Shown piece after piece: positions 3,133 through 22,795 of a stretch of DNA of 64,000 nt. The position numbers and the translations under genes are program-made. Each line of letters begins with the position of its first letter. Within the stretch, counting starts at the first letter, position 1. The notes beneath the pieces were generated by a model that was given only the letters and a program-made list of their open reading frames with translations, was not told the origin of the DNA and did not search any database. Source of the stretch: Sporomusa termitida (GTDB taxonomy: Bacteria > Bacillota > Negativicutes > Sporomusales > Sporomusaceae); the NCBI RefSeq assembly GCF_007641255.1, contig NZ_CP036259.1, positions 1,116,001 through 1,180,000 of the forward strand, in the 5' to 3' direction.

Positions 3133-3179
3133 CTCTCCGGGAACGGAGGGCGCCGGTTCGATTCCTGCCGGGCGCACCA
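3133..3179 (+). repeat. tRNA 3'-half fragment ending in CCA
   Basis: The stretch resembles the tRNA-Arg of 620-694 from the anticodon loop on. The last 25 nt (T loop, acceptor 3' strand, discriminator and CCA) are identical. There is no D arm and no 5' acceptor strand, so it is not a functional tRNA. It may be an attachment-site scar or the stump of a deleted tRNA gene. Confidence 0.7.
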
Positions 3180-3250: not shown

Positions 3251-3279
3251 GACAATTGGGGACGTTCCTTTTTTGTCAA
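3251..3279 (+). repeat. REP palindrome unit, left copy
   Basis: The sequence GACAATTGGGGACGTTCC followed by TTTTTTGTCAA recurs in inverted orientation at 3579-3599 joined to 4235-4243, where an intron splits it. A partial copy (TGACAATTGG) directly precedes it at 3241. A related palindrome lies at 6949-7000. Confidence 0.75.
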
Positions 3280-3379
3280 GAGTTTGTTATGGTAAGAATT
3301 TGCGCATAAAGGAACAGCGATACAGTAAGGTATGGAAGCCCCAATCCCTCCTTTACGCGACTTGTTTTTTCGTTTTTTC

Positions 3380-3582
3380 GAAAACAGGGCTGGTGGATAA
3401 ACTGGAAGAATACGCGCGTAGTAGTTATAGCGCATCTATTTGGCGAACTTGAGCTGAAACAAGATTTGCGCCAGAGCTGAAAGGGCGCGATGCCATGGTA
3501 AAAATAAAAGAGGCGGACTTCGATTCGCCAGATTAAGAGAGTGACCGGCATCTCCCGGGGTGTTGTGGCAAAAAAAAGTTGA
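3380..3582 (+). pseudogene. Remnant of a REP-associated tyrosine transposase (RAYT)
   Basis: Only scattered C-terminal pieces survive, in different frames: KLEEYARSSYS (matching the family pattern EEYxWSSY), LKGRDAMVKIKEA, and TSIRQIKRVTGISRGVVAKKS ending in TGA at 3580-3582. The last two pieces are the typical end of Y1 transposases of the TnpA-REP group. The stop falls in the right REP palindrome, as usual for these elements. The N-terminal two thirds with the catalytic HUH motif and tyrosine is missing. I infer a dead RAYT unit bounded by inverted REPs. Confidence 0.6.
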
Positions 3583-3599
3583 CAAAAAAGGAACGTCCC

Positions 3600-4234
3600 G
3601 TGCGCCAAGAAGCACACGGAGTATAGCGGGTGGGAATCCCGCCTGGGAAGGCCTAGCCAGTCACCCAGTATCCAGCCTTGGGACTGAAGCGGTAACGCCA
3701 GGTCTAAGCGTAGGCAGGAAAGGTAGTAGGGCGAAAGCGCAAGCTGAAGATGTAGAATCCCGAAATCCCTAATGGGAAAGGTCGATGCATGGGACGAGCA
3801 GAAGACAATACCGAGTTTAGCGATAAAGGCGAGCTAAGCCCGGCGCCCCGGGATCGAAGGTCTTGGCATGCTACACACTGTTACTCCGTGTGAACTTGGG
3901 AGACCCTGCCGCTCTCCGATAGGAGTATGGCCGACAAGTTGAAGACAAGGAAGCCAAATGAGTGGCAGGGAGTCGGATTACGTAGTAGTACCAAGGAAGC
4001 AGGGTAATGCCTGCGGAGGGAAGGACGTAACATAGTAGAGCCCTTGGAAAGAGAAACAATGGCTGCACTAGAGGCAGAGAAACCATTGGAAACAAAACTG
4101 ACATGGATAGCTGAGTTGGCCAAACAATAGCTATGGCTAAGCGTAAGTAAATGCTGCTATGAAGAGCCGGATGCCTTAATAGGGCAAGTCCGGTTCTGTG
4201 AGGGGGGCCGTCGCGAGATAGGCCTCTACTCGAC
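3600..4234 (+). mobile_element. Group II intron with internally deleted protein gene
   Basis: The element starts GTGCGCC and ends TACTCGAC, matching the GUGYG...AY ends of bacterial group II introns. Domain V is clear at 4164-4196: GAGCCGGATGCC, then TTAATA, then GGGCAAGTCCGGTTC, with the AGC triad and a bulged 3' strand. Domain VI follows (GGGGGGCCGTCGCGAGATAGGCCTC type stem with a possible bulged A). The long 5' part has the length expected of domains I-III. Only 23 codons of the intron-encoded protein remain in domain IV. Joining the flanks restores a REP palindrome, which confirms the borders. It may still splice if a maturase acts in trans. Confidence 0.85.
4059..4130 (+). pseudogene. 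Truncated group II intron reverse transcriptase/maturase (first 23 codons)
   Basis: Starting at ATG 4059 the frame reads a leader, then ETKLTWIAELAKQ and TAG. TKLxxIAELA is the usual N-terminal pattern of intron-encoded proteins. The reverse transcriptase, maturase and any endonuclease domains are absent, and domain V begins 33 nt after the stop. An internal deletion between codon 23 and the 3' end of the gene explains this best. Confidence 0.65.
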
Positions 4235-4277
4235 CGATTGTCAAATCTCAGAACAATAACAGCCTTGGAAAAAAGAC

Positions 4278-4308: not shown

Positions 4309-4444
4309 TATAAACCAGAAGTACGTGGTACATGTTGAAGGATAGATTCCAAAAGACAACTATACTTGTCAATATTTACCTCAAATGATAGGATGAGGTG
4401 TGTAATGAGTTAAGTGGTTTACCTTACTATGAATTACATATTGC

Positions 4445-4640
4445 TAAGTCAGGTGCCCTTTTCAGGGCTTAATAGGGAAGTCCGGTGCAATACCGGCGCG
4501 GTCCCGCCACTGTAATGGTGAGCAAACCCGAAGATATGCCACTGGGACAAGAGTCTTGGGAAGGTTCGGGAGAGCTATGATCCAGAGCCAGGAGCACTGC
4601 CTGTCTGAAGATCGCCGTTTTGCCTACGAGTGATGGGTGG
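4445..4640 (+). promoter_or_regulatory. Cobalamin riboswitch 1
   Basis: The conserved B12-box features occur in order: AGGTGCC, GGCTTAATAGGGAA, CCGGTGCAATACCGG, GCGGTCCCGCCACTGTAA, GATCCAGAGCCAGGAGCACTGCCTG, then GCCTACGAGTGATGGG. It precedes a hairpin terminator and a TonB receptor gene. Adenosylcobalamin or another corrinoid should reduce expression of the receptor. Confidence 0.93.
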
Positions 4641-4704
4641 AGATTACATTTGCGTTTGCTTGCTTTGGAATGTTCCTACGTGAGTCTGCGCAGCTTGTCC
4701 ATTT

Positions 4705-4736
4705 ACTCCTGGTCCTAGACCAGGAGTTTTTATTTT
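4705..4736 (+). terminator. Riboswitch-linked terminator in the btuB leader
   Basis: ACTCCTGGTC and GACCAGGAGT pair around CTA and are followed by TTTTATTTT. It stands between the B12 aptamer and the receptor start, so it probably serves as the expression platform. Confidence 0.75.
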
Positions 4737-4873
4737 GGATCAATGCTGTAGAATCCCTCCCCCGGCTGCCATGGACGGGACCCATTTTTTACGTCTCTTT
4801 TCTTCTGGCATCAAATGGCCTCAATTTACTCAATTATAGTCACTATATTTTTATCTTGAAAGGAAGAATGCTG

Positions 4874-6841
4874 ATGAAAAAGAAAACAGTTCTGAAAAAT
4901 CGTATGTTGATGACGGCCATCGTTGCCGGTTTATGCTGTGGGGGCGGCACAGCCGTTTTAGCTGCTGATACAGTGGAGGATTTTACACTTGATTCGATAG
5001 TAGTAACGGCTACCCGTTATGAGAAAGCAGCTGTTGATGTTCCTGCATCTACTACCATTTTGACGAATCAAGATTTAAAAAATACTGGTGCTGAGAATAT
5101 ACACATAGCTTTGCAAAAAGTCGCCGGCCTTGCTTATACTACATATGGCCCTAATGGGAATCCCTATTCCACTATGTCAAATTCAATTACTATCCGCGGA
5201 GTAAGTAATGGCACCTTGGTATTAATAAATGGAATCCCGATTAATATGTCTGGCAAATATTATTTGGATTCTATTCCGGTAGAGAATGTGGAACGTGTGG
5301 AAATAGTAAAAGGTGGCGGCGCTGTTTTATATGGCAGCGAAGCCATGGGCGGCGTTGTAAATATTATTATGAAAAAGCAATTTGAAAATACCGTGTCGGC
5401 AGGTATTGGTAATTTTGGACAGCGAAATTATAATGCAACATTTAATTTAGGTAAATTAAATGTTGGCTATAGTAAAGACAAATGGGGCAAACTGGATAAG
5501 ATTCAAACCAATAAAGACGCTGCCGGGGATAGGAACAGCACTTTTAAGGGTTCTGATAAAAACAGTGTATTTTTAGAATATAATTTTGCTGATAATTTAG
5601 CGTTTTTATATAATTACATGGATAATGAAAACGGCTATCAAACATGGTTTGGCGACAATTGGAAAAACAGCAATGCTGCTCAGGCCGGCGATTTGCAAAA
5701 TGATAAAACCTATACAAACAAGTACCATATAGCGCAGCTTAAATATAGTGAGGAAAATTGGCAGGCCAGTTTGTATTATAACCAAAATGAGCCTATTACA
5801 AGAGGGTTTACCAATTATTCCAGTAAAGGAGTCTTGAACCCATCGCTTGATGCGACTGATCAAAAGGACAGGACTTACGGGATTGATGCCCAGAAACATT
5901 GGCAGATAAATGATAGGACCAATACTATTTTTGGCTTTAATTATAAAAATGAATATTTTAAGCAATCTAATGCGACTACCTATATGCAGCAGGAAAGAAA
6001 AGTTTTTGGTGTGTATGGACAATGGGAACAAAAGCTGAATGATGTAAATTCGTTTATTTTAAGTGCCCGTGAAACCTGGACTGCTGGTGCTGACAAGGAT
6101 GCAGATTATAGTAATTTTAGCGCATCTGGACAATTTATTCATAAATTAGGTGAAAAGGATAGGGTATATGCCAGTATTGGCCAGTCGTTCATTTTACCTA
6201 CCTTTAACCAAATGTACGGCAGCACATATAATCTTTTGCCGGCACCGGAATTAAAGCCACAAACCGGCGTCAATTATGAAATTGGCTGGAAAAAAGCTGA
6301 TGACGGTCATAGCTGGAAGGCTGCGGTATATCATATTGATATTAAAGATAATATTAGTGCAACATGGGAGCCGTCAACAGGTATATCAAAATATAAGAAT
6401 GAAACTTTTAAAAACACCGGTGTTGAGTTAACCTGTGATATAACCGGGGAAAACGGGTGGTCGTATAGCTGGGGAATTAATTATGGAAATCCTAAAGTAA
6501 AAGCCGTAGGCCATAACCTTGTTGCCAAAGAGTATTGGGACAGAAAATATGGACGCTTGCAGTTGACTGGCGGAGTAAGTTATCAAAAAGATAAATGGAG
6601 TACAAGCTTAAACGGGACCTATTTAACAGAACGTGTCGGCACGCCCTCGGCTGCGCCTTCTATGAAAATTAAGCCATATTTCTTGACTAGCCTAAGCTCC
6701 ACTTACAGAATGGATAAAGATAACGAAGTTTCCCTATCTGTAGATAATCTGTTGGATAGAAATGATATTTTAAGCCATACAGGAACTAATTATTATGCAA
6801 CCCCTTGTAACTACTTATTAAGTTATAAACATAGGTATTAA
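4874..6841 (+). CDS. btuB: TonB-dependent outer-membrane receptor, BtuB-like
   Basis: A 655-residue protein predicted to import corrinoids across the outer membrane. The start ATG at 4874 lies 8 nt after AAAGGAAG; the frame is open further upstream only because it runs through the riboswitch. A signal peptide (MKKKTVLKN... to VLAAD) is followed by a TonB-box-like SIVVTATR, a plug domain (DLKNTGAENIHIALQKVAG, VERVEIVKGGGAVLYGSEAMGGVVNII) and a 22-strand-type barrel whose last segments include VDNLLDRND. The protein ends with SYKHRY, not the usual aromatic F/W. Control by a B12 riboswitch and by a MerR-type operator supports the cobalamin role. The gene is more AT-rich than the second receptor at 22942. 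Confidence 0.88.
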   Translation: MKKKTVLKNRMLMTAIVAGLCCGGGTAVLAADTVEDFTLDSIVVTATRYEKAAVDVPASTTILTNQDLKNTGAENIHIALQKVAGLAYTTYGPNGNPYSTMSNSITIRGVSNGTLVLINGIPINMSGKYYLDSIPVENVERVEIVKGGGAVLYGSEAMGGVVNIIMKKQFENTVSAGIGNFGQRNYNATFNLGKLNVGYSKDKWGKLDKIQTNKDAAGDRNSTFKGSDKNSVFLEYNFADNLAFLYNYMDNENGYQTWFGDNWKNSNAAQAGDLQNDKTYTNKYHIAQLKYSEENWQASLYYNQNEPITRGFTNYSSKGVLNPSLDATDQKDRTYGIDAQKHWQINDRTNTIFGFNYKNEYFKQSNATTYMQQERKVFGVYGQWEQKLNDVNSFILSARETWTAGADKDADYSNFSASGQFIHKLGEKDRVYASIGQSFILPTFNQMYGSTYNLLPAPELKPQTGVNYEIGWKKADDGHSWKAAVYHIDIKDNISATWEPSTGISKYKNETFKNTGVELTCDITGENGWSYSWGINYGNPKVKAVGHNLVAKEYWDRKYGRLQLTGGVSYQKDKWSTSLNGTYLTERVGTPSAAPSMKIKPYFLTSLSSTYRMDKDNEVSLSVDNLLDRNDILSHTGTNYYATPCNYLLSYKHRY

Positions 6842-22569: not shown

Positions 22570-22609
22570 ATTAGTTGACATATGCTTTACGCAGATTAAT
22601 TTAATAGTG

Positions 22610-22795
22610 TGAAAACAGGTGCCGAAAGGCTTAATAGGTAAATCGGTGCAACGCCGATGCGGTCCCGCCACTGTAACGGGGAGCGATGCCACAACATGTC
22701 ACTGAAGGTCAGCTTGGGAAGACGTGGCTGAGCAATGATCCGGAGCCAGGAGAACTGCCTGTTTTTATTTACCAACAGCCTACGAGTGATAGGAC
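22610..22795 (+). promoter_or_regulatory. Cobalamin riboswitch 2
   Basis: AGGTGCC, GGCTTAATAGGTAA, TCGGTGCAACGCCGA, GCGGTCCCGCCACTGTAA, GATCCGGAGCCAGGAGAACTGCCTG and GCCTACGAGTGAT follow the B12-box order. It is close in sequence to the one at 4445 and controls a second TonB receptor. Confidence 0.93.

Follow-up and report, generated by a model that had tools for sequence, protein, structure and literature searches.

An amplified ORF-less group II intron in REP palindromes of Sporomusa termitida

The window analysed here, a stretch of 64,000 nucleotides from Sporomusa termitida, contains a pair of inverted REP palindromes enclosing the remnant of a REP-associated tyrosine transposase (RAYT), and the right-hand REP is split by an ORF-less group II intron (Table 1). 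The unoccupied left REP reads GACAATTGGGGACGTTCCTTTTTTGTCAA, with the layout GACA..GGGGACGTTCC..TTTTTTGTCAA. A REP 21-mer was recovered, and inverted 21-mers numbered 13 versus 0 in the control. As an earlier note on this DNA had proposed, the transposase between the two REPs is decayed: the left REP lies 342 bp from the intron here, versus 815 bp in the intact cassettes at C1:628k and C1:4417k, with 78-88% nucleotide identity over the aligned parts. The intact homologues match REP_Tyr_transpos/Y1_Tnp (NF047646/PF01797); one of these two RAYT proteins scores just above the NCBIfam cut-off of 80 (80.4) and one below it (66.9), and both exceed the cut-off of Pfam. The insertion target thus has the features of a REP/RAYT system, i.e. 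a RAYT gene between inverted REPs together with dispersed palindromes, and the intron has entered the REP of a cassette in decay, so that one mobile element lies within another, as had also been suggested. The few bases just outside the REP core vary among cassettes, yet those on the left pair with those on the right of one and the same cassette (GGACGAT...ATCGTCC at C1:4417k), so that the inverted repeat reaches into apparent target DNA.

Table 1. The intron, its domains and its insertion site (positions in the window)
Feature	Position	Strand	Details and evidence
Left REP, unoccupied, orientation opposite to occupied REP	3251-3279	-	28/29 match to right REP joined across the intron
Decayed RAYT remnant	3280-3578	+	Shortened cassette, 78-88% nt identity
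Right REP, 5' part (5' exon)	3579-3599	+	IBS1 CGTCCC 3594-3599, IBS2 AAGGA 3588-3592
ORF-less group II intron	3600-4234	+	635 nt, GTGCGCC...CTCGAC; RF02005 and RF00029; eight same-ended copies
Domain I, boundary approximate	3600-3900	+	RF02005 match; alifold compensatory pairs; EBS/IBS covariation
EBS2 UCCCU and EBS1 GGGACG, in domain I	3766-3770 and 3791-3796	+	EBS/IBS covariation
Domain II, approximate	3901-3977	+	Consensus fold
Domain III, approximate	3978-4029	+	Consensus fold with compensatory changes
Domain IV, stem base kept, ORF deleted	4032-4160	+	Consensus fold; alignment with 1877-nt relatives
N-terminal ORF remnant, 23 codons	4059-4130	+	ATG 4059, TAG 4128-4130; alignment with relatives
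Domain V	4162-4195	+	RF00029
Domain VI, probable branch-point A 4228	4198-4231	+	RF00029 and consensus fold
Right REP, 3' part (3' exon)	4235-4242	+	CGATTGTC

Just upstream of the cassette lies a tRNA 3' fragment (3142-3179), looking as if left by an integrating element; its last 30 nt are 97% identical to the tRNA-Arg(CCG) at 620-694 on the opposite strand. About 200 nt downstream of the intron, a cobalamin riboswitch (4434-4618) precedes an ORF (4637-6841) named by eye as TonB-dependent receptor-like. A second cobalamin riboswitch is present in the window at 22600-22776.

The borders of the intron had been deduced from the palindrome itself, and they hold. The joined exons differ from the reverse complement of the left REP at 1/29 positions, the single mismatch claimed. 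Among the Rfam covariance models, RF02005 (group-II-D1D4-6) matched 3633-3863 (120.8 bits, E=1e-33), and RF00029 matched 4162-4234 (43.4 bits, above the gathering score), covering domain V, which had been described as intact, and stopping exactly at the proposed 3' border. Moreover, all eight copies of the element in the genome, whose 3' flanks are unrelated, begin with GTGCGCC and finish with CTCGAC, and GTGCGCC...GAC agrees in each of them with the group II end rule (5' GUGYG, 3' AY). Chance similarity and wrongly set borders were ruled out by the Rfam ends and the alignment of the eight copies. A consensus fold of eight introns with their ORFs cut out (alifold) contains 179 pairs, 37 of them with two-sided (compensated) changes, and 36 of 1409 cells are non-canonical; because one alignment served both to predict the fold and to count the pairs, the count leans in the fold's favour. 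All six domains are recognisable in this fold, domains I-IV with compensatory support, and in domain VI, next to domain V, A4228 is unpaired as the bulged A and probable branch point. Neither outcome that the earlier note had named as refuting its reading thus occurred: domains I-III were recovered, and the covariance models placed the ends nowhere else. Judged from its sequence, the element is a group II intron with these borders, and one that presumably has spliced.

The same note read the intron protein as stopping after 23 codons. Such an ORF is present, but its brevity is not due to a stop codon: alignment with full-length relatives places near 4126 a deletion of about 1,242 nt (~1.24 kb) of the ORF, and a C-terminal remnant (TATGGCTAA, 4132-4140) follows past the deletion point. 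An early-stop mutation was accordingly ruled out. The same deletion junction is found in 8/8 copies of the genome, indicating that the ORF was lost first and the intron spread second, as in Thermosynechococcus elongatus (PMC2882425). The autonomous form, with an RT/maturase in domain IV, is represented by none of the eight copies and is found in relatives.

The same intron core occurs in Sporomusa malonica, Sporomusa sp. KB1, Lucifera butyrica, Pelosinus and a Negativicutes MAG. In Sporomusa and other related Negativicutes the full-length parent form measures ~1.88 kb (about 1877-1880 nt) and encodes an intact RT/maturase (IEP) of 432-448 aa; one genome (G017) carries five full-length copies of 1,877 nt that are 100% identical, and another (G011) carries one. 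The full-length relatives also sit in REPs, once directly downstream of a RAYT gene: in a member of another family of the same class (G092), a RAYT gene is followed by the same REP and by a full-length intron whose IEP has 448 aa. A domain profile search identified RT and maturase domains (RVT_1, GIIM) in the IEPs of the relatives and reported no endonuclease (En) domain. In a search of 380 genomes of the class, only that of S. termitida yielded the contiguous ORF-less form, and since few candidates were scored per genome, rare additional ORF-less copies may be missed.

The complete genome (5.32 Mb, 2 contigs) contains eight ORF-less copies of 635-638 nt, 98-100% identical and with the same ends, and one partial relative besides (C1:755.7 kb, 89% over 125 nt). 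The search for full-length, same-ended copies that had been recommended therefore succeeded as to the ends and failed as to the ORF. All eight copies sit in REP or REP-like palindromes and directly follow ...CGTCCC, save one with a 10-nt insert, and the 3' sequence differs each time. Relative to the insertion point, the outer REP arms keep constant positions (GACA..TGTC, or GAAGC..GCTTC in the copy at 4960k); one arm is mutated in the 917k copy, and only three letters match in the 4417k copy. Arm matches at these sites and those of G017 beat 5,000/5,000 shuffles. Cassettes aside, no unique flanks beyond the REP are shared between copies in 60 bp 5' and 50 bp 3'. The 10-nt insert, at C1:3396468-3396477 between REP and intron, is a near-duplicate of the intron start (GTGCGCCAAC) and is perhaps an aberrant 5' junction of retrohoming. 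Domain VI of the C1:628k and 4960k copies differs as a block from that of the other six and resembles domain VI of introns in G119 and G013, a pattern that suggests recombination between intron lineages.

EBS1 (GGGACG) pairs with IBS1 (CGTCCC), and EBS1-IBS1 pairing is complete (6/6) at each of the 26 sites (permutation P=0.003). EBS2-IBS2 pairing averages 4.0/5, with 0/20,000 permutations as good and the predicted register the best; at the majority of sites in S. termitida itself, however, EBS2 pairs with only 4/5 IBS2 positions. EBS2 differs among lineages, matching the local IBS2, and EBS1/IBS1 and EBS2/IBS2 both covary: the introns of G009 and G012, with EBS1 GGAACC/AGAACC, are located after GGTTCT in GGGACGGTTCT, a REP core of this kind read on its opposite strand. 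Among the REP-like sites of the S. termitida genome, 8/14 with a fitting IBS2 are occupied versus 0/27 one-mismatch sites with another IBS2 (p=3e-5, a somewhat flattering value because the fitting class was set after the occupied sites had been seen). Together, covariation and site occupancy support a targeting of REPs that would proceed via base pairing.

Occupancy also shows a strand bias. GC skew, sampled in 20 stretches per genome, located the terminus between 2.1 and 2.34 Mb and the origin between 4.62 and 4.94 Mb, and the sense strand of 8/8 copies is on the lagging-strand template. Within the 14 fitting sites, 8/9 in lagging-template orientation are occupied versus 0/5 in the opposite one (p=0.003), and four of the five copies of G017 share this orientation, one being in the other. 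A bias of this sort is to be expected of En-less introns like RmInt1 (PMC5894124), and it could come partly from transcription/replication co-direction or REP orientation. These results bear on the idea that the eight copies, as immobile relics that only splice, owe their spread to homologous recombination or to gene conversion among REP/RAYT repeats, an idea that would fit the lack of a cognate IEP (see below) and the recombinant look of domain VI in the 628k and 4960k copies. However, homology on the 3' side amounts to a few nucleotides, the non-cassette REPs share ~20-30 bp, too little for two-sided conversion, and target choice tracks EBS2 and strand; we consider spread by this route very improbable.

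Half of the copies (4/8) occupy the downstream REP of a RAYT cassette, and two of these cassettes have an intact RAYT ORF; the other four copies lie outside recognised cassettes. Hitch-hiking might therefore be envisaged, in which RAYT would move the REP cassette along with its intron and splicing would hide the insertion, as in IStrons (a group I intron combined with an IS); consistent with this, the two intact-RAYT cassettes (628k and 4417k) are 98.5% identical across 815 bp. Nevertheless, the host cassettes differ by 8-16% over the last 120 bp in 5/6 pairs and their introns by only 0.2-1.3%, from which it follows that the introns are younger than most cassettes and were inserted separately. 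In the sixth pair (628k/4417k) the cassette ends are identical and the introns differ: the 4417k copy has position 132C in common with a REP copy outside cassettes, and the 628k copy shares its domain VI with another. Moreover, a REP split by an intron should disturb RAYT recognition. The divergence comparison rules out hitch-hiking as the main route, and as a general explanation it appears improbable.

Searches of the complete genome with PF00078 and with the cognate IEP of a relative recovered no cognate IEP. An RT-like stretch at C1:517 kb was rejected as a hidden cognate IEP, being merely a 39-aa fragment. The best RT in the genome is 35% identical to the cognate IEP and belongs to an unrelated intron family (family A), which has one intact 426-aa IEP ORF at C1:139.4-140.6 kb and several broken copies; no other group II RT/maturase in the genome looks intact. 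For the earlier proposal that the intron may still splice with a maturase from another copy, this genome offers no source, as all eight copies are ORF-less and the other intron RTs are unrelated, and the absence of a cognate IEP from the genome makes present activity of the intron doubtful.

The explanation that we favour, and regard as probable, is that a REP-specialised, En-less mobile intron lost its ORF and was then mobilised in trans to eight REP sites, splicing and mobilisation both being deduced from the sequences. The ORF would have been lost in a single domain IV deletion, and the compact form would have been spliced and retrohomed by a maturase/RT acting in trans. Reverse splicing into REP sites that fit EBS1 and EBS2, single-stranded on the lagging-strand template, would have produced the eight copies. 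The helper would most likely have been a full-length sister copy, since lost, and less likely the unrelated family-A IEP. This last protein could also be the present helper, mobilising across families as a relaxed driver, which amounts to the favoured scenario with another helper. It is the sole intact-looking candidate, and drivers of this relaxed type are known from T. elongatus (PMC2882425). The identity to the cognate IEP is only 35%, however, the T. elongatus IEPs are mostly 84-100% identical to each other, and domains V and VI differ between the two families, whose introns have no convincing sequence similarity. We judge a family-A helper unlikely. There is a small chance that the ORF-less family is still mobile in spite of lacking its cognate protein, driven by the RT/maturase of a distantly related intron; the two would then form a natural two-part system, the RT/maturase serving as a general trans-acting splicing factor.

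The complete S. termitida genome holds a recently amplified ORF-less family orphaned from its protein, a defined and testable stage on the way from an autonomous retroelement to a dependent intron, which is the path that spliceosomal introns have been proposed to have taken. The lineage also tracks a transposase's own palindromes, EBS1 and EBS2 changing and REPs being kept as home on either strand. ORF-less bacterial introns nearly always accompany related IEP-bearing introns, Clostridium tetani being the sole known exception (2015 review, PMC4424553). A literature search turned up no paper describing such group II introns in Sporomusa. The components are of known kinds; their combination, a REP-specialist lineage with an amplified ORF-less form and no cognate IEP in a complete genome, appears to be new with respect to the literature consulted.

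The closest parallel is provided by the TeI3 ORF-less introns of T. elongatus (PMC2882425), where one domain IV deletion likewise took most of the ORF, leaving N- and C-terminal remnants and one extra base near the ORF start, and was followed by amplification to many copies with matched EBS/IBS. However, T. elongatus keeps ORF-containing relatives as drivers, whereas S. termitida has no cognate IEP; its introns target REP palindromes, form no twintrons and belong to an IEP lineage without En. RmInt1 and RmInt2 of Sinorhizobium meliloti (IIB3/class D, PMC5894124) share the En-less IEP, the insertion in mobile elements and the lagging-strand-template bias; RmInt2 uses both inverted repeats of ISRm17, as the present lineage uses REPs on either strand, but these introns keep their ORFs and target an IS, not RAYT/REP. 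C.te.I1 of C. tetani (PMC3919590, PMC4424553) is likewise an ORF-less group II intron of a bacterium whose genome has no related IEP, but it splices alternatively near a surface-layer gene and has no dispersed full copies described, in contrast to the eight near-identical copies here. Finally, 2/9 copies of the Pseudomonas putida KT2440 group II intron (PMC1525189) are associated with REPs, whereas all eight Sporomusa copies are in REPs, and the REP-matched EBS1/EBS2 extend across several genera.
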